The translations under genes and the position numbers were made by a program. From Norana najaformis (Eukaryota; Annelida; Clitellata; Crassiclitellata; Hormogastridae), in NCBI GenBank assembly GCA_964023275.1, contig OZ029929.1, positions 11,927,483 to 11,991,482 of the forward strand: a stretch of DNA of 64,000 nt. The letters are read 5' to 3'. The notes beneath the pieces are model-generated. The model did no database searches and had not been told where the DNA came from. It was given only the letters and a program-made list of their open reading frames with translations. Below are positions 33,597 to 63,879 of this stretch, piece after piece (the first letter of the stretch is position 1; every line of letters begins with the position of its first letter).

Positions 33597-33626
<30 letters not shown>

Positions 33627-33635: not shown

Positions 33636-33929
33636 CAACAGTGCTCCTTTGAAATGCTTATCTAGTTCGTGATTGCCCAACACCCGGCCAGATACAGTTA
33701 GGTCTATGTGCGCCTATAGGTCCCCGTCAGTAGTGACGTTGAAGTGTCTACGTGATACCAACGCAGGTCTAGTTACAGTAGGCTATATAATGTACCTGTG
33801 TGCCTGGTTTCATGCGTCTATAACCACAGTTACAATTTATTTATTTTTGCAAAGGTAGGCTATTCACGCAGATAAATAGCGAATCAGTTTTCACAGGTTG
33901 ACGGCAAATTGTAAATGTTTATATGCGCC

Positions 33930-33998
33930 TGTGAATAAGCTGGTTCCAGCAACTTAGCTTTCGTTGGGCGCTGTAGAATTACGATTACGATTATGACG
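33930..33998 (+). mobile_element. Short LINE 3' tail, (ACGATT) family, unit A only
   Basis: GCCTGTGAATAAGCTGGTTCC through GTTGGGCGCTGTAG to ATTACGATTACGATTATG. The matching place in unit B (51730-51800) lacks it. Confidence 0.7.
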
Positions 33999-34399
33999 AA
34001 CCAGGATTTGAACCCTACACGCAAAGGTGAAAGGCAAACACACGACCAACCTGCCACTTTGCTACCTACTATAAAGTCTAGCAGAGAATACAGTGTTTTG
34101 CTGCATTCAACACTAACTAGTTTAATAGGCCTACCATAACAATTTATACATTTAGGCTCTCACCTATCCACTGCTTTTAAGAGTATGTACACAGCCTTCG
34201 TTAAGTGATAACATTGACTACAGGGAAGCCCAGTTTCCGACCTAAATGGTGTCTTATTTTGCGTGTCGTCATGGCGATAATCAGTATCAGCGAAGAGGAC
34301 CTGAACGAAGCTATTGATCGTTATACCTTGTACAGGAAGAAAGATTATGTTGTTTATCGACTTTGTCGAGAAAAGGACCCGAATGCGAACGCAGTCGTC

Positions 34400-34468
34400 T
34401 TCTAGTATTTTGGTTACGTGCGGTGCTGGAGTTCAGCGGCTTAACCTTCAGGCGACTTCGGTCTTCTG
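34400..34468 (+). promoter_or_regulatory. Candidate non-coding first exon of VLIG copy A, with splice donor
   Basis: A block GGAGTTCAGCGGCTTA..CTTCAGGCGACTT..G..CTTCTG is followed by GTGAGT (donor at 34469) and conserved in unit B, where the donor is GTAAGT (52255). The VLIG coding exon has an acceptor-like CATTACTTTTAG ending at 38441, 13 nt before its ATG. An intron of about 4 kb in the 5' UTR is therefore inferred. A large single coding exon with upstream non-coding exon(s) is also the layout known for vertebrate VLIG genes. Confidence 0.45.
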
Positions 34469-34479
34469 GTGAGTGTGAA

Positions 34480-34535
34480 TCGTCCGGTTGATGCCTTGTG
34501 CATTAGACATCGGCGTGTTAAAAGTTAATAATTAC
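34480..34535 (+). mobile_element. Short LINE 3' tail, (ATT)n family
   Basis: CGGTTGATGCCTTGTGCATTAGACATCGGCG then AAGTTAATAATTAC. The counterpart is at 52268-52325 in unit B, so it was inserted before the duplication. Confidence 0.6.
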
Positions 34536-34667
34536 TAAATGCTGTCCGTGTATCGAAGCACTATTTCATCAGATATCGTATCCCATTAAAGCGTGTTGTC
34601 AAGAGCAGAGGAAACATGTCTGTGTAAGGCCTATGAACATTTGCGATGGGCTAGTGGGATTGGATCA

Positions 34668-34745
34668 CGCCTGTGAATAAGCTGGTCCCAGTGACGTGGC
34701 TTTCGGTAGGCGCTGTAGATATCTCGGAATTACGATTACGATTGG
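34668..34745 (+). mobile_element. Short LINE 3' tail, (ACGATT) family, shared by both units
   Basis: GCCTGTGAATAAGCTGGTCCC, GGCGCTGTAGATATCTCGG, ATTACGATTACGATT. It is matched at 52456-52535, so it predates the duplication. Confidence 0.7.
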
Positions 34746-35049
34746 ACTGCTCACGTGAGATAAGCGTAAGCGAAACGTTACGAGCCAGGTTCAATGTCCA
34801 TTTTACGCATGTGGAATTTGAGTACTGCGTCTGCTGCATCGGGCGTCGTCGTTCCTCATCCTCGATCTCTGTTTGGGTACAGGAACCCCGAGTGGCGACT
34901 CTTTCACTTATCTGAGCGCTAGGCACAGTTTTCTTACAATCAACTTTCTGTTCTTAATGACTTTAATTGTAATTGTAAAGTTAGATTTACAGAGCTCCAC
35001 TTAGAGGATAAAGTCATCAGGGACTTTAACAGCAATTAGCCTAGCGAAA

Positions 35050-35142
35050 TAAGCGCTTTTGGGTGAATAAGCCTGTGAATAAGCTGGTTCCCGTGACTTA
35101 GCTTTCGTGGGGCGCTTTAGAAATCTCAAGATTACGATTAAA
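35050..35142 (+). mobile_element. Short LINE 3' tail, (ACGATT) family, unit A only
   Basis: GTGAATAAGCTGGTTCCCGT, GACTTAGCTTTCGTGGGGCG, TCAAGATTACGATTA interrupts a sequence that is continuous in unit B near 52865 (TTTTGGGAGGTACC..GCTATATTAAATGTG). Confidence 0.75.
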
Positions 35143-35759
35143 AGTCGCTATATTAAATGTGTCGAAATAACTAACTAACTAATGTAGGTTCAAAGCCATC
35201 TTACAGTCATTAAAAAATATTTCAAAAATTATTTCGAAGTTACTAACATATGGACTGTTGTTTATGGTGGGCTTATGGGCATGGGCTGCCCAACAACTAG
35301 TCTAGCTTGCGGTGAACGCCAGAAGCCCATTTACATACATCTACCAACACATGAACACTATGGGCATTTTGGGAGGCAATATTGGCGCGAGTTATCTGTC
35401 TATGAGTGCAGACTATATAAAACTACACAAGCTCAATGTCAGAAGTCCACCTGCAACATTTACCAAAATGTCGGTTCTATCTTTATTTTAGGCATGGGTT
35501 GCCCAAATTGTTCCACACACGCTGAATGTAAAAGCCCAAGTAGGTAACAGTGCTGGAGCCATATCTAGCTCACATGTAAGAGCGAGTCATATTTTGACGA
35601 TATTTTTTATTTTTTCGCAGCTCTAACATTTTCCTTATAAAGAGCTCTGTTAAAAGGCCCCAAAAATGCGCTTACGAAATGTCATGATACCTAAATAAAC
35701 ACATTTAGCTGCAACATATATCTGTTACTAAAACGTTTGCCCCCTTCATTTATGGGCGA

Positions 35760-36600
35760 AACTCGCTGTTAAGGGGCATTGGACGAAGGAAGAGCCAACC
35801 TTCTGTTATCTTGAATTGGAATCGAACCTTTGTCGGAAGAAGCGACCAATCTTACCCGCATTTCTTCCTCACCATAGTATGGAAAAATCCTACTGCTTAA
35901 TACAGCCTTACGACGTAAGGGTGGTAAGTCTCACGTTTGCAGTTCCCTTCGAGAGTTTACCAGATGGCACTTCAGCTTCCAAAGCTGAAGTGGTGTCCGG
36001 CGTTTCCGAGCAAGAAACCGTCGTTCCTGAGGGCAGACGATGATTCTTCTTGGTCCCCGCAACATAATTGAAATCTGATTCTAAAACGTCTTCCCAACCT
36101 GGCACCACAAAATGCCCTGAGAAACATTCCATCAGTCGTTCTTCCAGGGAAGACTAGCGCCCCGAAAGTTTATATTCTAAACGAGAGTGACTTTCCTTTA
36201 ATTCCTCTAAATGAGTTTCAATGCCTTTTATCTGTTCTTGTAGCTCAATCTTGCGCTCTATGAATTTCCTTTCTAAATAAATGTGACTTTCTGTTAATTG
36301 TTCTTGTAACTCACTCTGGCGCTTTACAAATTTCCTTTCTAAGGGAGCTTCACTTTTCACTAGCATCGCCTTCGAGTCAGTTATCTCTTTGAACATGGGT
36401 ATTACCTCTCTGCCCAGATGGTTCCACAAGCGCTGAACATAAAAGCTTAAATAGGTGACAATGCTGGAGCGATATTAAGCCCACGTGTGCATGTTGGCAG
36501 AGAAAGATCACTAGTGTAATTGATACATTATCAGGTGACAGCGAGCGATACTTTCCCTTAGGATTTCGTCGTTTAGCGAACATGTGGCCATACCATCAGC
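35760..36600 (-). repeat. Locus-specific repeat with coiled-coil-coding frame, copy 1
   Basis: The minus strand holds a 91-codon frame (36154-36429, MWNHLGREVIPMFKEITDSK ... ERKFIERKIELQEQ ... YKLSGR) with clear heptad character. A TAG follows, and then the same frame continues SSLEERLMECFSGHFVVPGW for 80 more codons. The block ends with a tRNA-like B box (GGTTCGATTCCAATTC, minus) near 35820. Related copies lie at 37000-37700 (unit A) and 53830-54580 (unit B). The TAG is conserved in unit B. It may be a fossil gag-like or SINE-associated sequence. Confidence 0.45.
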
Positions 36601-36999
36601 GAATTCACTTCACGTCATAGTTCTATGAGAGTGAGGGATTTTAGAACGCAGCTTATTCCACTGCCAGACTTTGGAGGGCCAGTTAATGTGTGTGGCATAA
36701 GCTGCGAGTCATTCATGACCTCGCTTCAATTCTTTTGCCTTATTGTAATAAGGCAATAGAATCGTGGACTCGTGGACTGTGAACGCGGCTTCAGCTGTAA
36801 AGCGTGAACTCGGTCTTTTTGTGGAGTTTTACAGTTTGTAACTCTTTGAGACAGCCAGCGATGACGATTTTCAGGCAAGCGAGCATATTTTGACGAAAAA
36901 ATGATTTTTCAGTTTTTCGCAATTCTGACATTTTCCGTATAAAGAGCTCTCTTAGGCTGTAAACTGCACTTACGACGTGTCAACTGCAACAATCATCAG

Positions 37000-37700
37000 G
37001 CACTAAGACGTTGAGGGGCATTGGACGAAGGAAGAGCCAACCTTCTTTTGTCTTGAATTGGAATCGAACCCTGGTCGAAGAAGCGACCAATCTTATCCGT
37101 AATCCTCCCTCATAAAAGTATGGAGGAATCCTACTTCTCAATCTAGCATTACAATGCACTTAAGTAAGTAAGTCCTACGTTTGCAGTTCTCTTCGAGTGT
37201 TTACCAGATGGCACTTCAGCTTCCAAAGCTGCAGTGGTGCCCGCCGTTTCCGAGCAGGAAACCGTCGTCCCTGAGGGCAGACGAGGATTCTTCTTGGCCC
37301 CCGGTAAAAAGCTTGAAATCTGGTTCTAAAACGTTTTCCTCCCAAAACTGGCGCCACAAAATGCCCTGAGAAACACTCCATCAGTCGTTCTTCCTAGAAA
37401 GACTGATGCTCCCAAAGTTTATAGTGTAAATGTGTGACTTTCCTTCAATTCCTCTAAACGAGTTTGACTTGCTATTAACTGTTCTTGTAACTCAATCTGG
37501 CGCTTTACGAATTTCTTTTCTAAGTGATCATAACTTTTCATTAGCATCGTCAATGAATCAGTTATCTCTTATGATATGGGCATTTCCTCTGTGCCCTTAT
37601 CTGAATCTAAGTCGTGGGGGACGTAGGCAGCCCTCTGCCATCTTTACTACAATTGCAGAGTCAAAAACACAGTCCATAGTATCTAATTATTATTAAACCA
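37000..37700 (-). repeat. Locus-specific repeat with coiled-coil-coding remnant, copy 2
   Basis: Shares CATTGGACGAAGGAAGAGCC, CAGATGGCACTTCAGCTTCC and CATCAGTCGTTCTTCC with copy 1 in the same orientation. Frames are more broken. Unit A thus holds two copies and unit B one (53830-54580). Confidence 0.6.
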
Positions 37701-38428
37701 ATGAATTCAATTAAATTTATATCGTCAACTTGACGCACTTCGAGAGCAATAATGTTTTATTTAAAATTATTATTATCTCTAAAATTTCTTTAGAATAGTC
37801 AGATTCGGAGCTTTCCGATTGTTTTGCAGCTGAAGAAACCTTTTGCAACAGGAATTAAATCAACTTCCTTGCCCCAAAACTTTCAGAAGGGTTTTCAGCA
37901 GCGGCCTTCCGTAAGAAGGGGATGATGCCGATACATCCCAGCGGTAGTCTCGACTGAGCGGATTGGCCGACGACTACCAGAACTGGATTCGACGAAACCA
38001 AGACGAGCCTCGAAGCGTTTGAAAAATTTTTCGGAAGACATAAGTTCCAAAATTTAAATTTCGTAGCTTCTAAGTAACCTCCAATCGAAAATATATCGCC
38101 ATAACTAATTCTTTTAAGTTTCGAACATTTATATAGCGCACGTGTTCGCAATCAGGCAGTAATCGAGTTAAGCACTGTCGGTTATCGATGGAACATTACG
38201 GAACGCACGAAATTCGATGCGATCACCCATAAAATACTCTTAAACTATGATATCGTATCAAATATCTATCGAACATTATTTGATATCGCAAAAATTCTTG
38301 AAATCAGCGAATCCTTGCAACTACATTGCTCTGTCAACGCCTATCATTAGGATTACTGTCACCCAACAGCTGCTGTATCAGGAGGAAGCCTTTACCTACC
38401 GCCACCCTGAAATAATTTTTAAATCGCT

Positions 38429-38441
38429 TCATTACTTTTAG
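38429..38441 (+). promoter_or_regulatory. Splice acceptor before VLIG copy A start
   Basis: A pyrimidine-rich TCATTACTTTTAG ends 13 nt before the ATG at 38455. The same TTACTTTTTAG arrangement precedes the second ATG of copy B (AG at 55458-55459, ATG at 55473), which argues that the downstream ATG is the ancestral start. Confidence 0.5.
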
Positions 38442-38454
38442 ATAATATTACGCA

Positions 38455-41400
38455 ATGGCTGATAGTGGAACTGCGGGTCGAGATAAAATACTTGATGAAT
38501 TAAAATTGAAGAACTACTATCCTCGCAAACTCAGTTACCATGAAGCAATAACGATACGAGCAAACGATAATCAATATGGATTGATGATCATCAATAGGCT
38601 TCTGCGATTTGATCATTCGGCTTTGAATTTGATTACCACGGAAATCAATGAAAGGAACAATGTCAAAGATCCCACCGTACGTGATAAACCAACTCAAAGC
38701 GGTGGAGAACATTTCGTAAAACGGTTTTCCCTCCGCAAAAGAAAAAAGGGAAATTCGAGGCAAATACATCCAATGGACATGCTGCTGGTTCTTCTAATCT
38801 GCTGTGATGATTGCCTTAGACATTTATTGGTACAGAGACTCATCGCAGCTAAATTAAGTGTCCCGGTGTTTCTTCCAGATGTTATAGATGATTCAACAAC
38901 AAGAAAAATCTGGCTTTTGAAAGACATAGCTTTGGAGTCGTCAGGTATAAGAGATAGGCCTACTTCAGAAACGAATCAGGCTGTGGTTGATGCTTCCGAT
39001 GTTACGGTTTCTTTCATTCGCGCTGGAGACCTTCACAGATCCAAGTCAAAACTTCTGTGTGAAATTCTAAACGAAACCGCCCACAGCACATTCTATCACA
39101 GAGATTGCCCTAACAGTTCTGCCAGACGAAATCTGACAAACGGATCCATCGAGGCTGCATGGTATCAGCCTAAGGGACAGTCCGATAACCACTTCAACTG
39201 TAATTCTGCCACAATTTTGAATCTAAGAGGAGATTCGTGTAATTACCCAAAAGAAGTTGAATTTATGTGCAAGTTATCCACGATTGTAGTGATTATGACT
39301 GATTCAACTGATTCGCTAGAGAAATTGTACCAGAATGTTTTGAAAAAAGTTATTTTGTCAAATACTAAATTACTTCTTGCATTTGTCTCAACAAAACCAG
39401 CAACTGATGAGGAATTAGACAATTTGGACTCAGTTTTGAAAGAAATCCGATTGTTGGAACACTTGACTGATGTCATTTCCGACTGGACAGAAAATCAACA
39501 AATGAATTCATACGAGTGGAAGATGAGTATCACGAAAGCAATTAAAGATTGTGTGAAAGAAATAGGACCAAAGAAATGGCCAACGATGGAAGAGGTTATT
39601 AAAAAATCAAAATTGTTCGAAATTGCTTCTCATGATGACGAATACCAGTTTGAAAATCGAAGGCAAGACGCTAAGGATTTAGTAAGTGACATCACTCGCG
39701 AATCTTATCGTTTGAAAAGGTCGCAATTGCCAATGGAGGAACTGTGGCATAGGATTTCAAAACTGGAAAAAGAAAAGCGACGGAAAGTCACAGCAGAGGA
39801 CGAGCCCATAGAAAGATTTATTGAAAAGAATGCCAGGGAAATCACAGACTTAAGAAAGCGTCAATTTGAAAAAATTGATACACTGAGTCGAGCATTTTGG
39901 AAATTCTGTGAGTTATTTGCCACTATTACCGAGGAAAAACATTTAATGTTTTATATCAATCAGATCAAACTGAATATTGAAATCGACCGTGGACAGAATG
40001 CCGAAATGCACAAGTCCTCAGGTCTAGTACTTAAGATAGAAACTATTTTACGCGAGGTTGGACAGATGTATGAGGCTACAAAAACAAAGGAAAACGTGAG
40101 AAATTCAGATGACACAGTCAAAAAGTTTCCAAATAGCGCAGCTAGGCTATTGCTAATGGGACAATCATTCGAGATATTGGATGGCGATGCTGGAAATGTT
40201 CCTCTTATTTGGTTAGAAGCAATTTTTGATGAAATAAAAAAACAGACGAAAGTTGATGTGAAAGTGTTTGTGCTGTCGGTTATCGGGCTACAAAGCTCCG
40301 GAAAGTCAACTCTGCTGAATGCTCTTTTTGGGCTGGATTTTCCAACGAGTGCCGGACGATGTACGAGAGGAATACATTGCCACTTGATACCCATGGATGA
40401 GACAACGCTAGGGATTAATTTTGATTACTTGATGGTTTTGGATGCAGAAGGATTCAGAGCACCTGAATTTTCAGGCAATTCTACTATTCGAGACAACGAA
40501 ATGGCAACACTTATTGTTGGCATGTCGGATTTAACAATTATTAGCGTAGAAGGAGAGACACTTTCCGAAATGGAAGACATTCTTCAGATCGTTGTTTACG
40601 CCTTACTTCGTATAAAACAAACAAAGCACGACGTAAAATTTATGCCAAGCTGTATGTTTGTCCACAAGAATGTATCGGCTCCTGATGCCAAGAGAAAGAT
40701 TGAAAAAGGGAGAAAATATCAGTTGCGTTTCCTAGACAAAATGGTGAAGGCAGCTGCACAACGAGAAGGATACAAAAGCGTAACTTCGTTTAAAGATGTT
40801 ATCACCTTTGATGAAAACTCAGATGTGTGGTATTTACCTGATTTGTGGCTAGGTGCTCCTCCATCTGCCACCTTCAATCCTGATTATATCAAAAGAGTTG
40901 CTGAAATCAGAGAGACTTTCATGGACAATATGAAGAAAAGACCTCCAAAATTAACTGTTTCGCAGTTATTTTTTCGTATTTCAGACGTATGGAATGCAAT
41001 TCTCATGGAGAATTCCATTTTTAACTTTCGATGCACAAGGGAAGTGTTAGCTCATGCATCTCTGAATAAGAAAATACAAGAAATCGAGTGGAAAATGCGC
41101 ACTCAGTGCCTCCAAGAACAGACGAAGATAGCTAACAAAATTATGTCTTGTGAAACGCTGGAAGATCTTGAAAAAGTCAAGAATAACTATCATGAAGAAA
41201 TGAAAACTTCTCAAGAAAACAGTGAAAGAGAGGCACTGAGAACACTGACTGAAATTCTCAATGAGATTGAGTTTAAAGAAATTCGTGAAAAGTTTAAGAA
41301 GAATTATGAAAAAAGTATTAAAAATTGGGCAAAAGCACAAACATATGATGCTTTGCAAGCACTTGAAAGGACGATCGACACTAAAAGAAAGAACATTGAA

Positions 41401-42372
41401 AATTGTCAAGGAATTCTAATAAAATTTCAACATATACAACACAAAATTGTAGAAGACTTTAACAAACAATTCAATGACGGAATAAGTCCAAGCGACGAGG
41501 AAATTGAGGCTTTTGTTGAACGCAAATGGAAGGAACAATTTTATGATGAAATACAGATGTATCAAAATGCACAATTACGTGGCAAGGAAAATGTTGCCAA
41601 AGCACTAGATTCAGAATTACGTAAACTATGCAAACATAATAACGCGAGTGAAATTAGTCTTGACGAAGCACTGAAAAATTACCCAATGAATTCTGAAATG
41701 TCTTTAGAGGATATAGCAATGCCCCAAGTAACGGATCGAGACATCACGCAAACGGCAATACAGGTACAAAGTACAGGCGTTCATGAAAAATCTCGTACGA
41801 CGGACGCTCAAGACATATGTCGCGAACTCTTTAAAAGATGCGAGTCGTATTTGAACAGCCTTAAAGGACTTGACTTTCAAAAAAGTCACGCCGAAGACAT
41901 ATTGAAGAAAATCGCCGAGTTTTTTGAGATACGAAGTGATGCAAGTTCCAGATATGATTGTAGCCAAAACGGCGTAGGGCCCAATGTCAGAGACGACTCG
42001 AGCTGTGGCAAGCAACATAATGCAGCCAACAAAGAGGTAATGGAAAATGATTTTCAGGCATCAGGGTCAATTTTTAAGAAAGCCTTTATCTTAAAATTTT
42101 CCGCTTTCATCTGTCAATATGCTTTCAACAGGTTAGTTAAGCTGAATCAAGAATTCATTTCAAACACGGATGCATCTGTAACCATGAAAAAACTATACAA
42201 ATCTCAAGCTAAAATGCTACTTAAGAGACAACTCCCTGCTGAACACCGTTTTGCCCGTCATCTTATGGAAAGGGCAAAAGAAACAGTTTTCAGAGGACTG
42301 GGTTCAGCAATCGTGATGAAAGTGTGCGAAGAAGATGACGCATTTACTCGACAGAAAAGATTTCATGGTTAG
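38455..42372 (+). CDS. VLIG-like GTPase, copy A (truncated by frameshift)
   Basis: 1,305 codons in one exon. The start MADSGTAGRDKILDELKLKN leads into LKNYYPRKLSYHEAITI, like the N-terminal region of vertebrate GVIN/URGCP proteins. G domain: P-loop GLQSSGKST at residues 611-619, TRG switch region, DAEG (G3) at 663-666, and the HKN segment of SCMFVHKNVS in place of a classical NKxD, as in the VLIG family. A long charged helical region follows (about 780-1200). Relative to copy B there is one extra base near 42349, after KVCEEDDAFT, so the frame ends 8 codons later and the C-terminal domain is lost. Family background: very large cytosolic or nuclear GTPases of the dynamin-related/GBP-like group, interferon-inducible in vertebrates. 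Function here is unknown. It may be a pseudogene or a shortened protein; an assembly error is possible. Confidence 0.85.
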   Translation: MADSGTAGRDKILDELKLKNYYPRKLSYHEAITIRANDNQYGLMIINRLLRFDHSALNLITTEINERNNVKDPTVRDKPTQSGGEHFVKRFSLRKRKKGNSRQIHPMDMLLVLLICCDDCLRHLLVQRLIAAKLSVPVFLPDVIDDSTTRKIWLLKDIALESSGIRDRPTSETNQAVVDASDVTVSFIRAGDLHRSKSKLLCEILNETAHSTFYHRDCPNSSARRNLTNGSIEAAWYQPKGQSDNHFNCNSATILNLRGDSCNYPKEVEFMCKLSTIVVIMTDSTDSLEKLYQNVLKKVILSNTKLLLAFVSTKPATDEELDNLDSVLKEIRLLEHLTDVISDWTENQQMNSYEWKMSITKAIKDCVKEIGPKKWPTMEEVIKKSKLFEIASHDDEYQFENRRQDAKDLVSDITRESYRLKRSQLPMEELWHRISKLEKEKRRKVTAEDEPIERFIEKNAREITDLRKRQFEKIDTLSRAFWKFCELFATITEEKHLMFYINQIKLNIEIDRGQNAEMHKSSGLVLKIETILREVGQMYEATKTKENVRNSDDTVKKFPNSAARLLLMGQSFEILDGDAGNVPLIWLEAIFDEIKKQTKVDVKVFVLSVIGLQSSGKSTLLNALFGLDFPTSAGRCTRGIHCHLIPMDETTLGINFDYLMVLDAEGFRAPEFSGNSTIRDNEMATLIVGMSDLTIISVEGETLSEMEDILQIVVYALLRIKQTKHDVKFMPSCMFVHKNVSAPDAKRKIEKGRKYQLRFLDKMVKAAAQREGYKSVTSFKDVITFDENSDVWYLPDLWLGAPPSATFNPDYIKRVAEIRETFMDNMKKRPPKLTVSQLFFRISDVWNAILMENSIFNFRCTREVLAHASLNKKIQEIEWKMRTQCLQEQTKIANKIMSCETLEDLEKVKNNYHEEMKTSQENSEREALRTLTEILNEIEFKEIREKFKKNYEKSIKNWAKAQTYDALQALERTIDTKRKNIENCQGILIKFQHIQHKIVEDFNKQFNDGISPSDEEIEAFVERKWKEQFYDEIQMYQNAQLRGKENVAKALDSELRKLCKHNNASEISLDEALKNYPMNSEMSLEDIAMPQVTDRDITQTAIQVQSTGVHEKSRTTDAQDICRELFKRCESYLNSLKGLDFQKSHAEDILKKIAEFFEIRSDASSRYDCSQNGVGPNVRDDSSCGKQHNAANKEVMENDFQASGSIFKKAFILKFSAFICQYAFNRLVKLNQEFISNTDASVTMKKLYKSQAKMLLKRQLPAEHRFARHLMERAKETVFRGLGSAIVMKVCEEDDAFTRQKRFHG

Positions 42373-43373
42373 ACTTCTCACTGATCTCGCTAATTGTGCA
42401 AAACAGGAGGATTATGAGTCGTTTTTTGAAGATTCAGAAAGTTATTCTGAAAAAACAATAAAGAAATACATAACAAATGAACTGAGAATAAACCACTACA
42501 GGAAATCTTCGCAAAAACATAATCCTGGAAACCGTCGAGAGGTTCAAAGTTTTAGTAAAAGAAATCAAAGACGCTGTCTCTTCTTCAGAAGGCAGGATCA
42601 TTGAACACTGGACGCAAGATCTTCAAAGCAAGGTATCTGGTAAAATAGAGTTTAAAATGGCAGAATGTAAAATTCTATTAAAAGAATTTGACGAGAAAAA
42701 AGAAATGAAGACTACTGCAGATCAAATACTGAGAGAAATTGATCAGATATTAGGAGACGAAATTAGCTCAATTGAAAAGCCTGACTTTGATATTTTGAGC
42801 AAGGTGCAATCGACGTTTGGCACAATTGATCCGATCGCTGAGTTAATGGAAAAAATTTCAGGATGCCGTGCGAAATGCCCATTCTGTTCCGCTCCGTGCC
42901 TGGAACAAATAGTTCATGCAGAACTCGAAAAGCACCGCTCGTTGCACTATCCGCTGGGGGTCTGTGGCACAGTCGAAGTTTCTTATGGATTGTTTGGTGG
43001 GAAAGTTGAGCAAGTGATTCCTGGAGCAAGTCAACACAAAAGTAAGCAGTTAGTTCTGGATTCATGTCCCCTTTTAATCCAGACCAAAAAGCGTTTTCGT
43101 TCTCTGAGCAAACAGAAGAAGTTCCTTTGCCGATTATTTCGCAAGGATTCTCGCTGTTATTCCAAATACTTTAAGGAGTTTCCTGATTGGTACATAACGC
43201 CAGCATCAGGTGCAAAGCATACGGCTTTCGACTATTGGAAGTGGTTTAAGGCTCAGTTTGCTGAAAAGTTTGCAGCGAAATATAGGGCTTCATGTCCTGA
43301 AATACAAGATGAATGGAAAAGTATAACTTTGGAGGCAGCAACGGCAAGTTTGAAGGAACAAATCAACATATAA
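42352..43373 (+). pseudogene. Displaced C-terminal part of VLIG copy A
   Basis: After the first frameshift, homology to copy B continues in the next frame (RKDFMVRLLTDLANCAKQED ... SYSEKTIKKYITNELRI). A second extra base near 42496 moves it to the third frame, which is then open to a TAA at 43371. This last part holds CRAKCPFCSAPC with downstream histidines, a Cys/His cluster typical of the VLIG C-terminus, and ends in FDYWKWFKAQFAEKFAAKYR ... KEQINI. The coding signal (homology to B without internal stops in the homologous frame) shows the damage is limited to two single-base insertions, neither in a long homopolymer. Confidence 0.85.
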
Positions 43374-43489
43374 GAGGTTTTTTGATCGTATTTCGAATTC
43401 CCACAAGACAAAATAAGATGACACAATGACTAAGGCATCTGTTCATTATCTAATAACCATATATGAACATCTTAGTATTTAGAGACCGT

Positions 43490-44175: not shown

Positions 44176-44477
44176 ACTCAATTGTTTCTGCCATCAAGCG
44201 TAGGAATTTGGTACCGGCATAATTGTGAAATTAACGGCAAGGCCTGCGATGCTTTGGCCCCTTGCGCATGACCTTGTGCTTCGTATGTTTCTGAAAGAAG
44301 TGCCGAAGAACAAAAATGAGAACCTTTTTTATGTTACGCTATGATCCATAGAAGCTTTTATAGCTTATGTTTACTAAGGGATCATTTCTACACTGGGTAA
44401 TATAAACAAATACATTTACTATTACCTAATTTGTGCCCATGAGCGCTTTAGCCGCCCTAATGTTGTAAGAGCGAGAT

Positions 44478-50605: not shown

Positions 50606-50639
50606 CAAGCCACTCTATGGAAATTTGTGTAGCGCCTAT

Positions 50640-52455: not shown

Positions 52456-52535
52456 CGCTTGTGAATAATCTGGTCCTCGTGATGCGGCTTTCGTTCGGCG
52501 CTGAAGAATTCTGGGAATTACGATTAAGATTGGAC
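52456..52535 (+). mobile_element. Short LINE 3' tail, (ACGATT) family, shared by both units
   Basis: GCTTGTGAATAATCTGGTCC, TTTCGTTCGGCGCTGAAGAA, GAATTACGATTAAGATT; orthologous to 34668-34745. Confidence 0.65.
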
Positions 52536-53829: not shown

Positions 53830-54580
53830 GCGAAACGCACAGTTGAGGGGCACTGGACGAAGGAAGAGCCAACCTTCTGTTGTCTTGAATTGGAATCGAA
53901 CCCTGGTCGGGAGGAGCGACCAGTCATACCCGCAATCTTCCATCACCATATAGAGGAATCCTACTGTTCAAACTAGAACTACGACGTAAGGGTGGTAAGT
54001 TCAACGTTGCAGTTCTATTCGAGTGTTAATAATGTGGAACTTCAGCTTTCAAAGTTGCAGTGGAGTCCATGGTTTTCGAGCAGGAAACCGTCGTCCCTGA
54101 GGGCAGACGATGATTCTCCTTGGCCCCGCAACAGCTTGAAATCGGGCTCTAAAACGTCTTACTCCCTAACCTGGCGCAAAAACAAAATGCCATGATAAAC
54201 ACTCTATCAGTCGTTCTTCCTGGGAAGACTAGCTCTCCCAAAAGTTCAAATTCTAACGGAGAGTGACTTTCCTTTAACTCCTTTAAATGGGTTTGACTTC
54301 CTATATCTGTTCTTTTATCTCAATCTGGCTATCTAGTACCTCAATCTGGCTCTATGAATTTCCTTTCTGAATGAGTTTGACTTTCTATTAATTGTTCTTG
54401 TAATTCACTCTGGGGCTTTACGAATTTCTTTTCTAAGTGATCTTGATTTTCATTAGCATCGCCATTGAATCAGTTATCTCCTTTATTATGGGCATTACCT
54501 CTGTGTCTTGTTTGAACCTAAATCGGAGTGACGTAAAACACCCTCGGTCATCTTTACTACAATTTCAGAGTCAACAAAAC
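53830..54580 (-). repeat. Locus-specific repeat with coiled-coil-coding remnant, unit B copy
   Basis: Matches 35760-36600 and 37000-37700 (GGACGAAGGAAGAGCCAACC, GAATTGGAATCGAACCCTGG, GAGGGCAGACGATGATTCT). The frame is broken, and the TAG before the SSQEERL-coding segment is retained. Confidence 0.6.
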
Positions 54581-55472
54581 AGTCAGTACTATCTAATTAT
54601 TATTACAAAAATGAACTGAATCAAATTTATATCGTCGACAAACTTCGAGAGTTATAATGTTTTATTTAAAAGTATTGTTATCTCTAACTATTCTTTAGAA
54701 TATTTAGACTCGAAGCTCTCCAATTTCTTATTTCCAGTTTAAGAAACCGTTTAGAAAGAGATTTAAAATCAACTCACTGGCCCAAAATTCTCAGCAGAGT
54801 CTTCAGCAGCGGCCTTCTGGAAGAAGGTGATGACGCTGATCCCTCCCAGCGGTTTTCTCGAGGACGGCTTAGCCGACGGCAAACAGAACTGGGTTAGGCG
54901 AAACTAAGACCAATCTAGAAGAGTTTCACAATTTTTTCGGAAGATGTAACTCCCAAAATGCAGCTTCTAAGCAACCTGTAATGGAAAATACATCGCCATA
55001 ACTAATTCTTTTAAGTTTCGAACATTTATACATCGCACTTGATCGCACACAGGCTATAACCGAGTTAAGCACGGTCGGTTATCGAATCAACACTACGGAA
55101 CGCACGTAAATCGATGCGACCTCCCTAAAAATACCCCTAAACTATGATATCGAATCAAACTATCTATCCAAAATTTCTTGATATCGCAAAAATTCTTTGA
55201 ATCAGCGAATCTTCGTAGCTGTAATCGTAACTGTAATCTGGCATTTATAAAGCGCCACTTCAAGAATAAACTCATCAGAGGCGCTACAGGTTTAGCTCTG
55301 TCAACGCTTATCATTAGGATTACTGCCACCCGACAGCCGCTGCATCAGTAGGGACCCTTCACCTAGCAACACCCAGAAAGAATTTTTAATTCGTTTCAAT
55401 ACATTTAGATAACAGCACGCAATGGCTGATAACTGCAAAATAAATCTCTTACTTTTTAGAGAATATTACTCA

Positions 55473-58400
55473 ATGGCTAATAGTGGAATTGCGCTTGGAG
55501 TTAAAATACTTGACGAATTAAAATTGAAGAACTACTATCCTCGCAAACTCAGTTACCATGAAGCAATAACAATACGAAGAAACCATAACCAGTATGGTTT
55601 AATGATCATAAATAGACTTCTGCGATTTGACCATTCGGCCTTGAATTTGATTACCACGGAAATCAATCAAAGGATCAATGCCAGAGATACCACTGCACCT
55701 GATGCACCAACTCCGAGCGGTGGAGAACATTTCGCAAAAAGGTTTTCTATCCACAGTAAAAAGAAGGAAAATCCGACACAATTACATCCAATGGACGTGC
55801 TGGTGGTTCTTCTAATCTGCTGCGATGATTGTCTTAGGCAGTTATTGGTGCAGAAACTCATCACAGCTAAATTAAGTGTCCCGGTGTTTCTTCCAGATAT
55901 TATAGATGACTCACAAACACAAAAAATCTGGCTTTTGAAAGACATAGCTTTGGAGTCGTCAAGCATCAGAGATAGGCCTAATTCAGAAAGAGATGAGGCG
56001 GTGGCTAATGTTTCTAATGTTACGATTTCTTTCATTCGTGCTGGAAACCTTCACAGATCCAAGTCAAAACTTCTGTGTGAAATTCTAAACGAAACCGCCC
56101 ACAGCACATTCTATCACAGAGATAGCCCTAACGGTTCTGCCAGACGAAATTTGACAAACGGATCCATCGAGGCTGCATGGTTTCAGTCTAAAGGACAATC
56201 TGATAACCACTTCAACTGTCGGTCTGCCACAATTTTGAATCTAAGAGGAGATTCGTGTGATTACCCAGAAGAAGTTAAATTCATGTGCGAGTTATCCACG
56301 ATTGTAGTGATCATGACTGACTCAACTGATTCACTAATGCTATTGTATCAGAATGTTTTCAAAGAAGTTATTTTGTCGAACACTAAATTTCTTCTTGCAT
56401 TTGTTTCAACAAAACCAACAAATGATGAGGACTTTGATAATTTGGACCCAATTTTGAAAGGAATCGGATGGTTGGAACACTTGACTGATGTCATTTCCGA
56501 TTGGACAGAAAATCAGCCAATTAACTCATATGAGTGGAAGACGAGTATCACGAGAGCAATCAAAGATTGTGTGTCAGAAATAGGATCAAAGAAATGGCCA
56601 ACGATGGAAGAGGTTATTAAAAAATCAAAATTGTTCGAGAATACTTCTCATGATGACGAGAATCACTATGAATCTCGAAGGCAAGATGCTAAGGATTTAG
56701 TAAGTGCTATCATTCGTGAAATTTGTGAATTGAAAATGGCGCAATTGCCAATACAGGAAATGTGGCAAAGGATTTCAGAGCTGGAAAAAGATAAGCGACG
56801 GAAAGTCACAGCAGAGAACGAGCCCATAGATAAATTTATTGAAAAGAAAGCTAAAGAAATCTCAGCCTTGAGAAAGCTTCAGGTTGAAAAAATTGATAAA
56901 ATGAGTGAAAAATTTAGGAATTTCTGTGAGTTATTTGCCTCTATTATCGAGGAGAAACATCTCATGTTTTATATTAATCAGATCAAACTGAATTTTCAAA
57001 TCGGCCTTGGACAGAATACTAAAATGCATAAGTCCTCAGGTCTAGTGCTTAGGATAGAAACTATTTTGCGCGAGGTTGGACAGATGTACGAGGCTATGAA
57101 AACAACGGAATATGTGAAAAACATGACAATCTGGAAACAGAACACAGTCCAAAAGTTTCCATATAGCGCAGCTAAGCTATTGCTAATGGGACAATCATTC
57201 GAAATATTGGATGGCGATTCCGGAAATGTTCCTCTCATTTGGCTGGAAGCAATTTTCGATGAAATCAAAACAAAAACGAATGTTGATGTAAAAGTGTTTG
57301 TGCTGTCGGTAATCGGACTCCAATGCTCCGGAAAGTCAACTCTGCTGAATGCTCTTTTTGGACTGGATATTCCAATGAGTGCCGGACGATGTACAAGAGG
57401 AATACATTGCCACTTGATACCCATGGGCAAGACAATGCTAGGGAATAATTTTGATTACATGATGGTTTTGGATGCAGAAGGGTTCCGAGCACCTAGATTC
57501 GCAGGCAATTCTACTACTCGAGACAATGAAATGGCAACATTTATTGTTGGCATGTCGGATTTAACAATTATTAGCGTGGAAGGAGAGACACTTTCCGAAA
57601 TGGAAGACATTCTTCAGATCGTTGTTTACGCCTTACTTCGTATAAAACAAACAAAACACGACGTAAAATTTATGCCAAGCTGTATGTTTGTCCACAAGAA
57701 TGTATCGGCTCCTGATGCCAAAGAAAAGACTGAAGAACGGAGAAAATCTCACTTTGGTTTTCTAGACGAAATGGTGAAGGCAGCTGCACAACGAGAAGGA
57801 TACAAAAGTGTTACTTCGTTTAAAGATGTTATCATCTTTGATGAAAACTCACATGTGTGGTATTTACCTGATTTGTGGCTTGGTACTCCTCCAGCTGCCA
57901 CCTTCAATCCTGATTATATCAAAAGAGTTGCTGAAATCAGGGACGGTATCTTGGATATCGCGAAGATAACTCCAATAAAATTGGCTATGACGCAGTTATT
58001 TTTTCGTATTTCAGACTTGTGGAATGCGATACTTCTGGAGAATTTCGTTTTTAACTTCCGATGCACAAGGGAAGTGATAGCCCATGCATCTCTGAAAAAG
58101 AAGATACAAGAAATCGAGTGGCAAATGCGTAATCAGTGCCTTCAAGAACAGACGAAGATAACTAATAAAATTATGTCTTGTGAAACGGTTGAAGATCTTG
58201 ATCAGATAAAGAATAACTATCATGAAGAAATGAAAACCGTTCAAGAAAACAGTCAAAGAGAGTCACTGAGAAAACTGGCTGAAGTACTGAATGAGGTTGA
58301 GTTTGAAGAAATTCGTGAAAAGTTTAAGAAGAATTATGAAAATAGTATTAAGTACTGGGCCATCACTCAAAGCTGCGAGACTTTGCAATCACTTGATAGG

Positions 58401-60416
58401 ACGATCAACGCCAAGAAAAAAAACATTGAGAATTATCAAGGAATTCTGAAAAAATTTGAACGTAGGCAAAAAAAACTTGTTGAAGAGTTTTTCAATCAAT
58501 TCAGTTGCGGAGCAAATCCAAGCGAAGAAGAAATTGAGGCTTTTGTGGAACGCAAATGGAAGGAACATTTTTTTACTGAAATACAGAAGTATGAAGCTGA
58601 AAAAAAAATATGCCGAGATGATGTTGCCGAAGCACTATATTCAGAATTATGTAAACTATGCAAAGATATCAAGGCCAGTGAAAATAGTCTTGGCGAAGCA
58701 CTGACACGTTATCCAATCAACTGTGAAATTCCTCTAGAGGATATAAGAATGCCCCAAGTAACTGATCAAGACATCATGCAACCAGCTATACGGGTACAAC
58801 GTGCCGTCGTTCATGTGAAACTTCGTACGACAGAAGCTCAAGAGGCATGTCATGAACTCTTTAAAAGCTGCGAGTCTTATTTGAACAACCTGAAAGGACT
58901 TGACTTTCAAAAAAATCAGGCTGAAGATATATTGAAGAAAATCGCCGAGTTTTTCGAGATACGAGCTGATGCAAGGGCCAGATATGATGTTAGCCGATCA
59001 GGCGTAGTGCACAGTGACAACAGAGACGACTCAAGATGTGGCACACAACATGATGCAGCCAACAGAGAGTTAATTGAAAATGTTTGTCAGGTACCAGGAT
59101 CAATTTTTACGGAAGCCTTCATCTTATCTTTTTTCGCGTTCATCTGTCAATATGCTTTCAAAAAGTTAATTAAGTTGCATCAAGAATTCATTTCAAACAC
59201 GGATGCATCTGTAACCATGGAAAAACGATATAAATCTCAAGCTAAAGTGCTATTTAAGGGACAGCTGTCTACTGAACACCGTTTCGCCAGTCATCTTATA
59301 TTAAAAGCAAAAGACACAGTTTTCAGAGGACTGGGTTCAGCAATCATGATGAAAGTGTGCGAAGAAGATTCCACATTTACTAACAGAAAAGATTTTATGA
59401 TTAGACTTCTTACTAATCTCGCTAATGGTGCAAATCTGGAGGATTTTGAGTTGTTTTTTAAAGATTCCGAAAGTTTTTCTGAAGAAACAATAAAGAAATA
59501 CATAACAGATGAACTGGGAATGAAGTCTACAGGAAATCTTCGCAAAAATGTCATCATGGAAATCGTCGAAAGCTTCAAAGTTCTAGTAAGAGAAATCAAA
59601 GATGCCGTTTCTTCTTCAGCATGCAGCACCATTGAACACTGGACGCAAGACCTTCAGAGAAAGATATCTGGTAAACTAGAGTTTAAGATGACAGATTGTA
59701 AATTTATTTTAGAAAAAATTGACGAGAGAAAAGAAATGAAGACTACTGCAGGTGACATCATGAAAGAAATTGATTTTATAATAGAAGACGAAATTAGCTC
59801 AATAGAAAGGCCTGATTTTGATATTTTGAGCAAAGTGCAGTTGACATGTGACACAATTGATCCGATCGCTGAGTTAATGGAAAACATATCAGGATGCCGT
59901 GCGAAATGCCCATTCTGTTCCGCTCCGTGCCTGGAACAAAGAGGTCATTCAGAACTCGAGAAGCACCACTCGTTGCACTATCCGCTCGGGGCAGTTGGCA
60001 CAATTGAAGTTTATTGCGGATGGTTTGGCGGAAGCTTTGCCCAAGTATTTCCTGGAGCAAGTAAAAACAAAAGTAAGCAGTTAGTCCTGGAGTCATGTCC
60101 ATTTTTAATCCAGACCGAAAAGCAGTTTCGATCTATCAGGACACAGAATATGTTTGTTAGCTGGTATCACAGGTGGTTTGGCTTCGATTATGTCTCTTAT
60201 TCCGAATACTATAAGAAGCTTTCTGATTGGAACATACCGTCAGCAGCAGCAGTTTCAACGGACACGGCTTTCGACTACTGGAAGTGGTTTAAGACTCAGT
60301 TTGCTGAGAAATTGGCAGCGAAATATGGGGCTTCATGTCCTGAAATACAAGATGAATGGAGGAGAATAACTTTGAAGGCAGCAGTGGCGAGTTTGAAGGA
60401 ACAAATCAGCATGTAA
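55473..60416 (+). CDS. VLIG-like (GVIN/URGCP family) very large GTPase, copy B, intact
   Basis: 1,647 codons in one exon from the ATG at 55473, chosen because it aligns with the copy A start and follows an acceptor-like CTTACTTTTTAG. An in-frame ATG at 55422 would add 17 residues. Order: N-terminal family region (KNYYPRKLSYHEAITI, about 15-40); G domain with P-loop GLQCSGKS (615-622), Thr641 in CTRG, DAEG (667-670) and HKN (741-743) replacing NKxD; a long charged helical region (about 800-1300); a Cys/His cluster (Cys1475, 1479, 1482, 1486, His1492, 1498/1499, 1502); a Trp-rich end (DWNIPSA, YWKWFKTQF). At 1,647 residues it is shorter than vertebrate GVIN1-type proteins and longer than URGCP. 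No death-fold domain or membrane span seen. An AATAAA lies at 60638. Guanine-nucleotide binding is well supported by motifs; an immune role is inference from vertebrate relatives. Confidence 0.9.
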   Translation: MANSGIALGVKILDELKLKNYYPRKLSYHEAITIRRNHNQYGLMIINRLLRFDHSALNLITTEINQRINARDTTAPDAPTPSGGEHFAKRFSIHSKKKENPTQLHPMDVLVVLLICCDDCLRQLLVQKLITAKLSVPVFLPDIIDDSQTQKIWLLKDIALESSSIRDRPNSERDEAVANVSNVTISFIRAGNLHRSKSKLLCEILNETAHSTFYHRDSPNGSARRNLTNGSIEAAWFQSKGQSDNHFNCRSATILNLRGDSCDYPEEVKFMCELSTIVVIMTDSTDSLMLLYQNVFKEVILSNTKFLLAFVSTKPTNDEDFDNLDPILKGIGWLEHLTDVISDWTENQPINSYEWKTSITRAIKDCVSEIGSKKWPTMEEVIKKSKLFENTSHDDENHYESRRQDAKDLVSAIIREICELKMAQLPIQEMWQRISELEKDKRRKVTAENEPIDKFIEKKAKEISALRKLQVEKIDKMSEKFRNFCELFASIIEEKHLMFYINQIKLNFQIGLGQNTKMHKSSGLVLRIETILREVGQMYEAMKTTEYVKNMTIWKQNTVQKFPYSAAKLLLMGQSFEILDGDSGNVPLIWLEAIFDEIKTKTNVDVKVFVLSVIGLQCSGKSTLLNALFGLDIPMSAGRCTRGIHCHLIPMGKTMLGNNFDYMMVLDAEGFRAPRFAGNSTTRDNEMATFIVGMSDLTIISVEGETLSEMEDILQIVVYALLRIKQTKHDVKFMPSCMFVHKNVSAPDAKEKTEERRKSHFGFLDEMVKAAAQREGYKSVTSFKDVIIFDENSHVWYLPDLWLGTPPAATFNPDYIKRVAEIRDGILDIAKITPIKLAMTQLFFRISDLWNAILLENFVFNFRCTREVIAHASLKKKIQEIEWQMRNQCLQEQTKITNKIMSCETVEDLDQIKNNYHEEMKTVQENSQRESLRKLAEVLNEVEFEEIREKFKKNYENSIKYWAITQSCETLQSLDRTINAKKKNIENYQGILKKFERRQKKLVEEFFNQFSCGANPSEEEIEAFVERKWKEHFFTEIQKYEAEKKICRDDVAEALYSELCKLCKDIKASENSLGEALTRYPINCEIPLEDIRMPQVTDQDIMQPAIRVQRAVVHVKLRTTEAQEACHELFKSCESYLNNLKGLDFQKNQAEDILKKIAEFFEIRADARARYDVSRSGVVHSDNRDDSRCGTQHDAANRELIENVCQVPGSIFTEAFILSFFAFICQYAFKKLIKLHQEFISNTDASVTMEKRYKSQAKVLFKGQLSTEHRFASHLILKAKDTVFRGLGSAIMMKVCEEDSTFTNRKDFMIRLLTNLANGANLEDFELFFKDSESFSEETIKKYITDELGMKSTGNLRKNVIMEIVESFKVLVREIKDAVSSSACSTIEHWTQDLQRKISGKLEFKMTDCKFILEKIDERKEMKTTAGDIMKEIDFIIEDEISSIERPDFDILSKVQLTCDTIDPIAELMENISGCRAKCPFCSAPCLEQRGHSELEKHHSLHYPLGAVGTIEVYCGWFGGSFAQVFPGASKNKSKQLVLESCPFLIQTEKQFRSIRTQNMFVSWYHRWFGFDYVSYSEYYKKLSDWNIPSAAAVSTDTAFDYWKWFKTQFAEKLAAKYGASCPEIQDEWRRITLKAAVASLKEQISM

Positions 60417-60539
60417 GTTTGTCAGGTCGAATTTCTTAATCCCACAAGGCAACATAAGATAACATAGCCTAATGTCTCGGCTAAAATCATATTCATTATC
60501 TAATAGCCATATTGTAACATTTTAATTAAAAGTAGAAAA

Positions 60540-61225
60540 CTTTCATTATTGTTTCATTATTTGTCATCATAGATGACTTGTTTTATCTTAAGGCTATTGC
60601 CATTGTTTCACTGTTTAACTGATATCATAAAGAACATAATAAATATCTTATTGTTCCCACAGTCCCACTGGTTTTTATGATCGAAATAGTTGTGAATGTG
60701 AATACGACATGTTGAATCTTAAGGATATCGTCATCGCTTTGCTACTTAACATGTTAAAGGATCTTCATAATATTTTGATACTATCATTCTGTCACTATTA
60801 TTTTGCAATAGACATAATTATGTATGTGCGTAAAGCTGTATCTGACATGTCAAATCTTTAGATTATCGTCATCGCTTTACTATTTAAAACGATAGAGAAC
60901 CTGCATAATATTTTGATTCTATTATTCTGTCACTATTGTTTTGCAATAGATATTATTATGCACGTGCTTAAGGCTGTATGTGACATGTTAAATCTTTAGA
61001 CTATCGTCATCGATTTGCTATTTAAAATGATGGAGAACCTTCTAAATATTTTGCTGCTATCATTTTTGTTTTGAAATCGGTATAGTTATGTATGTGCTCA
61101 AGGCTGTATCTGACATGTTAAATCTTAAGACTGCCGTCGTCGCTTTGCTATATCACATGATACGGAACTTTCAAAATATTTTGATGCTGTCATTATTTTT
61201 TATGCTTTTATTATATCATTCTTTC
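60540..61225 (+). repeat. Degenerate tandem array of about 130-bp units downstream of VLIG B
   Basis: Four to five units carry AAGGCTGTATCTGACATGTTAAATCTT, ATCGTCATCGCTTTGCTA, ATTTTGAT.CTATCATT and TTTTGCAATAGACATAATTATG. Counterpart of 43490-44175. Confidence 0.8.
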
Positions 61226-62154
61226 AGTACAGGATAAATTTACTTTTAAACAATTGTTCCCGCTGTCAAGCATTAGAAATTGGTACCGGCATAATTGCGA
61301 AGTTTACGGCAAGTCTTGCGATGCATTTGCCCCTTGTCCATGACCTTGTGGTCCGTAACTTGCTGCGGAAAGAGAAATGGGCGTGCCTCCCTTATGTTTC
61401 ACTATGAGACATAAAAGCTTTACTTTTATAGCTTAAGTTTACTAAAATACAAATATCCTTCCTTACTTTAAGCTATGCGTGACGTATAAGGTGACGTATT
61501 ACCGCTAATCTGATCTTACTTTATCTTTCAGAGCATTGTTCCTCTAGACTGCAAATACCATTGCAGCTATAGAATTCTCGTGCACAAATAAATTTTCTGC
61601 CAATAACACAATAAGTGTGAGCAGTAGCCATGAAGTAAGGACGAAGGCTCTGCCGCTATTTTCCAATAACTGAACATTTTAACCCTTCGATGGTACAGTA
61701 GGTCTGTAATCCAACGCTCGCGGACTCGAGACTGCTGAGCGAACTCCGTGTAGCGGACCCTGGACACTCATCACACGCCTCAGATTCAGATTTGCTGACC
61801 TTGAGTGCGCTATAAGTGCAATAAATAAGGACAATTTAAATAAGAGCAATAAATAAGTGCAATAAATAAGTAAGTAGAAATATACGAACAACCTTCCTTG
61901 CAACTGCAGTTCACTGCTTCAATGACTTTGCCGTCCGCAGCACGCTTGCTGTAACAGAATTTGGCCAGGCGTAACCGTTCCAGATGATTTTTTTACATTA
62001 TTTCCGGAAATTCGTTTACTAATGAGGGAACATTTCTACTCTAGGTAAAATAAATAAATACATAAATATATTAATACGTATTTTGTGCATGTGAGGGCTT
62101 TGTCACTTTACTTTTGTAAAAGCGAGGTGTGCCAAAGTTTCATCATGAATGGGA

Positions 62155-62560
62155 TCATACAGACACAAAGGCGAGCTCACAACACACATAGAGAGACTCA
62201 GACATACACAGACGCACACAGAGACATATAGACACACGCGAAAACAGATTTGGACACGCAGACCGACTAAGACACACATACGCAAACAGACACACAAATG
62301 TATGTATGTATGCATATAAAAACTTGATATAGCGCCTTTTAAGTGCCTCACAAAGGCGCTTCCTGCGCTAATTAAATGGTGTTAAGTGTCACTAAGAACA
62401 AAAATTCCGTCATTTAGCAAGCAGTGTTCAGATAACCAGAAATGTCAAATGCAGACACATAAGGCAAATACAGAAAAAAACAGACAGCCTCAGACACACA
62501 CAGACGTATAAAGACAAACACAGACACATACCCACCAACACACACGAACAGAGCTCTGCA
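62155..62560 (+). repeat. CACAGA-rich degenerate satellite, unit B, interrupted
   Basis: Same satellite as 44478-44750, split by the 62323-62452 dispersed repeat; CACAGA words resume after it. Confidence 0.85.
62323..62452 (+). repeat. Short dispersed repeat, copy 2
   Basis: Close match to 19079-19207 (CACAAAGGCGCTTCCTGCGC, AATTCCGTCATTTAGCAAGC). It is absent from unit A's satellite, giving a filled/empty pair. Confidence 0.8.
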
Positions 62561-62979
62561 TATTCTTGTTGTTACAAGCAGTTGTGCTTTAACGAGCGTG
62601 TACGTCGTTCAACCGATACAGAAATGAAATCCGTCGTGATGAATGGAGCCAAAAGAGGTTCACGAATCTATGCTTCGATCATCGACCAACTGGAGTTCGC
62701 TTCAGAAGTTAAAGTGTGCATGGCGTCAAATCAATTTGAGTCAGAAACGCAGGCGGAGTCCGCTATCTTTATGTATCGGGATACACAGATATGGCGCTTT
62801 GCATCTAAATTTTCACATAAACACTGGTTCTTTTACGAGATCCATATCTACTCTAGAATTCAGACAATGTGTTTATATCGAGATCACAGAATAATCGAGC
62901 AATCAAAGAACACTTTATTCGCTACAGTGACTGCCTACGGTAAGGCAATGTTATGAGAGCCACGGTGATCAATTTATGT

Positions 62980-63110
62980 AGCAAGGAGGTCAATCTGTAG
63001 AGCGCTGGGTCTGCAATCCAACGATTGCTGGCTCGAGCCCGCTCAGCGGACTAAGTGTAGACGACCTTGTACAAATTCTTCTTGCGCCTCAGTTTCAGAT
63101 ACATATTTGA
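62980..63110 (+). repeat. tRNA-derived SINE, unit B
   Basis: AAGGAGGTCAATCTGTAGAGCGCTGGGTCTGCAATCC provides an A-box region and GCTGGCTCGAGCCCGC a B box. A GACGACCTTGTACAAATTCT body follows. A related GTCTGTAATCCAACGCTCGCGGACTCGAG piece is at 61700-61730. Confidence 0.6.
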
Positions 63111-63879
63111 TCACCTTGAGCGAGTAGTATGACCAACAAATAAATAAAATATTCTCTCAGGTATGGCTCGTAACTTAGGATGGCGTTTGCATTACTTGAC
63201 CCAGAGATGTGATGTCCTTTTGTCAAAAGTATCGAAAGGACCTTGTTTCACAAGTATTGACCTGATTGCGGCTGGAGCGTTAGAAGTTACTAATTGCAAC
63301 TGGAACTGGAAACAATTTATTGATATCATACCTTGAATGCCGAAAGACAGTAAAACGATTTAGGTTTCTGAGCATGTTAAAGATTTGAAATTGTTGCTAA
63401 TTCCTTGAAAATGTGCACTTGAAACCTTTCTTCTTTGGCATTGCTTAAATTTCGTATTTGTATTCATGTATCTGGCTGTTTATACTTCGCCTATTAAGAC
63501 CTTCATAGACGCGCTAAAACATGACTACATAATAGTTCTAAAAAGGTGCAATTTAATATAGTGTTTAAGGCATATTATGGGATGCATGTAATGCAAAGAT
63601 CCTAGTGAACACTAAGATATGATACTCAATGCATCCTGATATCCAATGCCCTTAACTTATATAAAGCAGAGCTGGTGGCGCTGCAATCGACAAAGTTGTG
63701 GGCTCAATCAGAGAGGTAATATTATGTGAAGGATCCCAATGGACGTGGTTATATAATCCGACCTTACCTTAATCACATCTTCCGGTAGGTGTTTTTAGAT
63801 TTTTGAAATGGGACGATGCGCCCTGTGACCTCAATGTCATCGGTGGTATCAAGGCTGTCTATTAGCCTTCCTGTTTACA

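Follow-up and report, generated by a model that had tools for sequence, protein, structure and literature searches.

The coding sequence of mouse VLIG-1 lies entirely within a single, very long exon, preceded by an intron in the 5' untranslated region (5' UTR), and the mouse Gvin cluster consists of tandem copies together with pseudogenes. URGCP, which to our knowledge is single-copy in vertebrates and is not known as an immune effector, carries the identical two Pfam domain names as the genes described below, which form a multicopy cluster. According to a report from 2025, human GVIN1 forms a coat on cytosolic bacteria and blocks actin tails; although annotated as the pseudogene GVINP1, it works from its longest open reading frame (ORF) of 1,808 amino acids, and its model has two large G domains (PMC11974893). 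In clams, an expansion of 'interferon-induced very large GTPase' genes has been described (PMC11592408). In the present study, we analyzed a stretch of 64,000 nucleotides (hereafter, the window) from the annelid Norana najaformis (contig OZ029929.1, positions 11,927,483 to 11,991,482 of the forward strand), in which an original prediction, made from the letters alone, had placed two VLIG-like GTPase genes, one intact and one broken. Its statement that invertebrate VLIG loci are little described is only partly right, since the clam expansion is on record; that expansion, like the present one, is lophotrochozoan, and in the passage cited it is reported as an expansion and not as the anatomy of a locus (PMC11592408). 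None of the literature matches listed dealt with a VLIG locus of an annelid, from which we do not claim that such a study does not exist.

The window contains part of what is probably a tandem cluster of large GTPase genes of the VLIG/URGCP family, evolving by birth and death in an invertebrate. In a profile search, the G domains of the two genes in the window, copies A and B, fell in URGCP_GTPase (PF25683; 306.3 bits, E = 3.7e-91 for A and 287.6 bits, 1.7e-85 for B; cut-off 55) and not in another family, and both proteins have the N-terminal URGCP domain (PF25496; 184.6 bits, 3.5e-54 and 167.8 bits, 4.6e-49, respectively; cut-off 27). We take this pair of domains to be that of the VLIG/GVIN family; by profile, A and B thus belong to the large GTPases of the URGCP/VLIG (GVIN) family, as predicted. 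The main G domain of both has the G1 P-loop GLQ.SGKST and the G3 motif DAEG. The domain pair and the very long ORF are common to these genes and vertebrate VLIG/GVIN, and tandem copies accompanied by pseudogenes are a feature that they share with the mouse cluster; copy B, from an invertebrate host, has 1,647 amino acids versus the 1,808 given for human GVIN1 (PMC11974893). The features of the window are as follows.

1015-1929, minus strand: left boundary gene, represented by exons that resemble those of a fatty acyl-CoA reductase (NAD_binding_4, PF07993)
33631-45927, plus strand: unit A, which comprises a 5' flank including the first exon, an intron, the broken VLIG-like gene and a 3' flank (BLAST blocks common to B, C and D)
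34468, plus strand: last base of the predicted first exon of unit A, with the donor GTGAGT next (conserved in A to D) and a predicted intron at 34469-38441 (acceptor before 38442)
38455-42369, plus strand: open part of copy A, 1,305 amino acids, URGCP and G domain, GKS P-loop and DAEG intact (ORF, Pfam, motifs)
42343-42494, plus strand: region of copy A with two single-base frame shifts, first stop at 42370 (tblastn pieces, alignment with B and C)
42495-43370, plus strand: last 292 codons of copy A, in a different frame, carrying a conserved Cys/His module (tblastn, alignment)
51047-51373, minus strand: old inverted G-domain remnant, ~36% identical to A, B and C (hidden Markov model match above cut-off, 7 stops; tblastn)
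51494-63860, plus strand: unit B (BLAST blocks common to the other units)
52254, plus strand: last base of the predicted first exon of unit B, with the donor GTAAGT next and a predicted intron at 52255-55459 (conserved splice signals)
55473-60416, plus strand: copy B, intact VLIG/URGCP-family gene of 1,647 codons in one predicted exon (open frame, Pfam)
60706-61194, plus strand: 138-bp tandem array 3' of copy B (Tandem Repeats Finder, TRF)

The window lies on contig 17 (C17, 19.4 Mb) of a host genome of 608.4 Mb in 17 contigs. The BLAST self-comparison of the window gave two direct units of ~12.3 kb each with 5.6 kb between them, close to the ~12.2 kb and ~5.6 kb of the original prediction. 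Positions 38432-43625 of unit A and 55449-60660 of unit B are 85.5% identical over 5,233 columns, and the flanking blocks (within 33.6-45.9 kb and 51.5-63.8 kb) are 76-85% identical; the coding DNA of the units is ~85% and the introns are ~80% identical. A tandem array and a satellite had been predicted for each unit. TRF scores the 138-bp array in B only and, near 44.6 kb, a satellite-like repeat in A only; however, BLAST finds degraded counterparts in the opposite unit.

The count of two units and two genes was too low. Extension of the locus past the window revealed a third open copy, a unit without a gene and old remnants, and the cluster has at least four units, of which C and D lie outside the window: B is complete with an intact P-loop, C is open with a threonine in the P-loop, A is cut before the Cys/His module and D is gene-less. 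As for copy B, the frame is open from 55413 to 60416 and gives the predicted 1,647 codons from ATG 55473, the start common to the copies; an earlier ATG at 55422 sits upstream of the splice acceptor, and ATG 55473 lies 13 bases past TTTTTAG. Copy A is indeed broken by two single-base changes, with an ORF of 1,305 amino acids, the two shifts and a final piece in another frame. Copy C is located ~8 kb past the end of the window (C17:11999442-12004358, which corresponds to 71960-76876 in window numbering) and has an open frame of 1,639 codons; its protein is 73% identical to that of B. It keeps the G3 motif DAEG but has an altered G1: where A and B have AAG for lysine, C has ACG for threonine, which makes the P-loop GLQSSGTST. 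Copy C may be a decaying gene or a nucleotide-binding-deficient partner, and this open copy with an altered P-loop next to an intact copy is the most unusual point of the locus. Unit D (~94.3-100.1 kb, counted past the window) has kept the first-exon block; tblastn found no credible VLIG-like sequence in it (best E 0.49), and at the position of the gene there are pieces on the minus strand that by eye, and not by profile, resemble the reverse transcriptase and endonuclease of a long interspersed nuclear element (LINE). A second old minus-strand remnant, ~36% identical to the family by tblastn, is at 89229-89414 past the window.

In the whole genome, the family profile gave 19 matches, representing 18 loci (4 on C17, 12 on C2, 1 on C5 and 1 on C10); these counts are lower bounds, and the 89-kb remnant and unit D are outside the 18 loci. 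In 10 of the loci the frame runs without interruption for 1,500 residues or more, and the other 8 are interrupted or fragments, including the locus at 15.91 Mb of C2, which is interrupted by one in-frame stop. The birth-and-death pattern claimed earlier is supported by these interrupted loci (8 of 18), together with the P-loop substitution of C, the missing gene of D and the old remnants. Among 13 proteins (from 13 of the 18 loci), the P-loop is GKS in 11 and GTS in C, and in the last, a distant member at 36.9 Mb of C2, no motif could be recognised. The protein of copy B shares only 21-23% identity with seven others over the N-terminal half, and 16-18% over the C-terminal half. Against the Pfam profile, however, A, B and C reach 296-310 bits, and the others at most 218; judged from sequence, the genome therefore contains no fewer than two old subfamilies. 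The P-loop GxxxxGKS of the URGCP domain is present in all seven aligned proteins from outside C17 and degenerate in the three from C17. The former agrees with the two-G-domain model of human GVIN1 (PMC11974893); in the C17 genes, unlike in vertebrate VLIG/GVIN, the P-loop of the first G-like domain is degenerate. A C-terminal Cys/His module (C1492, C1496, C1499, C1503, H1509, H1515 and H1519, counting from ATG 55422) is fully conserved across the 10 aligned rows, which cover both subfamilies, and may bind metal; the open frame of copy A stops upstream of it.

The other subfamily forms a cluster of its own, larger than that on C17, at 15.26-15.91 Mb of C2; three of its nine loci are uninterrupted and have a canonical P-loop in the URGCP domain, and six are broken or fragmentary. 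At 36.92 Mb of C2, a 2,147-residue open frame matches the GTPase profile only weakly (67.5 bits) and has no G1 or G3 recognisable by the patterns used. The genome also agrees with the invertebrate host claimed earlier, as 29 matches to the annelid haemoglobin-linker domain (PF16915) occur in it; 15 of these are on C5 at ~34.4-36.9 Mb, apparently an expanded family. The haemocyanin domain of molluscs gave no match, a result that is not proof of its absence.

As for the growth of the array, the 2.7-kb spacer between units B and C, past the window, joins the right edge of the cluster to its left edge: 64050-65688 matches 100118-101762 (90%), 65694-66372 matches 1469-2151 of the window (87%) and 66372-66792 matches 2439-2869 (92%). 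Thus 1469-2869, with one exon of the left boundary gene, was copied into the spacer; a histidine-phosphatase gene (PF00328) lies at the right edge. In a genome search with the spacer, in which the best 40 of 716 candidates were scored, the only long matches among those listed were at the two cluster edges, and 37 of the 41 matches listed were a dispersed repeat of ~100 bases. Since the right edge is joined to the left edge, the spacer is, to judge by these alignments, the scar of a head-to-tail duplication of the whole cluster. Divergence between the edges is 8-13%, and the other flank and intron blocks that A, B, C and D have in common mostly show 75-85% identity (the exceptions are a 187-bp D-C piece with 91% and a 177-bp A-C piece 3' of the genes with 87%), with dS (synonymous divergence) of 0.22-0.29 between the genes. 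Because the edges are closer to each other than these blocks and genes are, the copies seem to have split before the block duplication, which would have been followed by losses. The array grew by repeated head-to-tail duplication, one round of which included the boundary genes, and duplication would supply spare copies that may diverge, lose the P-loop lysine (C), become truncated (A) or lose the gene (D).

Exchange between the copies was also considered. The sites shared by pairs of copies are nearly even in number (A-B 324, A-C 319 and B-C 275), and the pair that shares sites varies along the gene beyond chance (chi2 61.7, 30 df, P 0.0006), so that some exchange is possible. With all sites, the longest shared runs gave no significant sign of gene conversion (P 0.08 to 0.71); with third positions, the uncorrected P values were 0.039 (A-B), 0.18 (A-C) and 0.13 (B-C).

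Selection was examined with a three-branch codon model of A, B and C, using 1,290 codons before the frame shifts of A and 291 after them. The original prediction had called for this comparison, and the one-ratio dN/dS (omega) was 0.585 before and 0.689 after the shifts, with A not distinct from B and C: a separate ratio for A did not improve the fit (gain in log likelihood, lnL, of 0.08 before and 0.00 after). Some of the lowest ratios in sliding windows are around the G domain. Copy A has thus evolved under much the mild constraint seen in B and C, which points to a recent death of the copy or to a truncated product that remains in use or constrained.

Judged from its sequence, copy A is probably a recent pseudogene. 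An alternative possibility, rather unlikely, is that copy A is alive and makes a functional, C-terminally truncated protein of 1,305 amino acids. Its 1,305 codons are without a stop, its P-loop and DAEG are intact, and the open part as a whole shows constraint similar to that of B and C (omega 0.62), with an omega of 1 rejected for A before the shifts (2dlnL 8.56); furthermore, human GVIN1 offers a precedent, as the ORF of the pseudogene GVINP1 is reported to work (PMC11974893). However, the part after the shifts has about the same point estimate (0.68, with an omega of 1 not rejected, 2dlnL 1.28), only the first 650 codons of the open part reject an omega of 1 (omega 0.49, 2dlnL 9.7; for the remaining 640 codons, 0.76 and 1.3), and the truncated protein would lack the Cys/His module that is invariant in the aligned rows. 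A similar choice concerns the 5' block of the units, which may contain the promoter and the first exon or, rather improbably, may be a transposable element. In a genome search with 51858-53300 of the window (best 40 of 1,754 candidates scored), query positions 599-674 and ~760-1048 were dispersed throughout the genome, as expected of such an element; however, the stretch with the donor (1-598) and the part past 1048 were found only in the C17 cluster among the matches listed. Moreover, the first-exon block ends with TTCTG or TCTG followed by the donor GTRAGT in all four units (last base at 69263 in C and 96120 in D), and the acceptor TTTTTAG or CTTTTAG is 13 bases 5' of the ATG in all three genes, which agrees with the earlier claim of a candidate first exon and a 5' UTR intron. 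The predicted introns are 3,973 (A), 3,205 (B) and 2,683 (C) bases, and an in-frame stop (38443) between the acceptor and the ATG of copy A fits an untranslated first exon.

It is very improbable that the genes are generic dynamin- or GBP-type GTPases rather than VLIG/URGCP. The G domains of A and B have weak matches of 14-28 bits to Dynamin_N, RHD3 and MMR_HSR1, of which only Dynamin_N in A reaches the cut-off (28.0 bits, cut-off 27), and GBP matches occur in relatives; these are set against 288-306 bits for URGCP_GTPase (55 required) and 168-185 bits for URGCP (27 required). The suspicion that the repeated units are an artefact of assembly, such as haplotigs or a false duplication, which the original prediction had named as a possible refutation, has next to no probability: the units are 15-25% divergent, differ in their insertions, have distinct edge sequences and occupy separate positions on one 19.4-Mb contig, and the divergence and positions exclude it.

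Several points weigh against a VLIG/URGCP cluster shaped by birth and death in the manner proposed. One-step duplication of the whole cluster predicts that A-C and B-D are ~10% divergent throughout, and their inner parts are ~20% divergent, so that losses or extra rounds are needed; in addition, the gene tree groups A with B rather than with C (support 0.80). The site test for positive selection (M1a vs M2a) was not significant (2dlnL 4.99, 2 df), and the first exon and splicing of the units are predicted from conservation alone. Structure prediction from the rows of the window alone gave mean predicted local distance difference test (pLDDT) scores of 32.8 and 39.5. A sequence search of solved structures with copy B found no match at E up to 0.01.

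Relatives were also sought in bacteria and viruses. Four Planctomycetaceae loci were matched, with a best matched segment of 47-48 residues around the P-loop; at two of the four, the proteins are Dynamin_N/LeoA-like, and one protein at each of these two matches URGCP_GTPase (25.3 and 27.3 bits) below the cut-off of 55, so that they were not counted as members. Two Planctomycetaceae metagenome-assembled genomes (L049, 2860-7171, and L052, 615-5069) have three consecutive GTPase-like genes unrelated to the present cluster: two with Dynamin_N, the first being LeoA/LeoBC-like by PADLOC, and then one with a weak DO-GTPase1 match. This trio is possibly a multi-GTPase system. In the viral_contigs set, 58 stretches fit a pattern, none of which was confirmed as a relative.

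In the rest of the window, 30706-33640 contains two inverted arms of ~0.95 kb, 88% alike, which flank 44-bp satellite repeats. The arm itself is dispersed through the genome in high copy number (1,591 candidates, with identities of 94-96% in the 40 other matches listed), and five same-strand pairs 10-11 kb apart occur among the 41 matches listed; given this copy number and spacing, it probably represents the long terminal repeat of a retroelement that was active not long ago. Open frames at 3296-3688 and 30163-30507, both on the minus strand, by eye resemble the 3' end of a LINE reverse transcriptase; a Pfam search with them gave no match.

Because of its homology with human GVIN1, a single vertebrate relative, copy B would be a GTP-driven, self-assembling protein of cell-autonomous defence of the GBP/VLIG type. 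Among IRG proteins, those of the IRGM type have GMS instead of GKS in the P-loop, and GMS-type proteins regulate GKS-type ones. As in the IRGM type, the P-loop lysine is replaced in the otherwise open copy C; however, the residue is methionine in IRGM-type proteins, which are of a different GTPase family, and threonine in copy C. By analogy, one could speculate, with considerable doubt, that the copies form a working set of a catalytic B, a P-loop-altered C unable to bind GTP normally and a truncated A that lacks the Cys/His module, each following the conserved first exon, in which the inactive paralogues regulate B.

The locus is well supported but of an expected kind. It would show birth-and-death evolution of the VLIG/GVIN family outside vertebrates, and its compact cluster of intact, P-loop variant and truncated copies may serve as a natural test set to show which regions of the protein are important.

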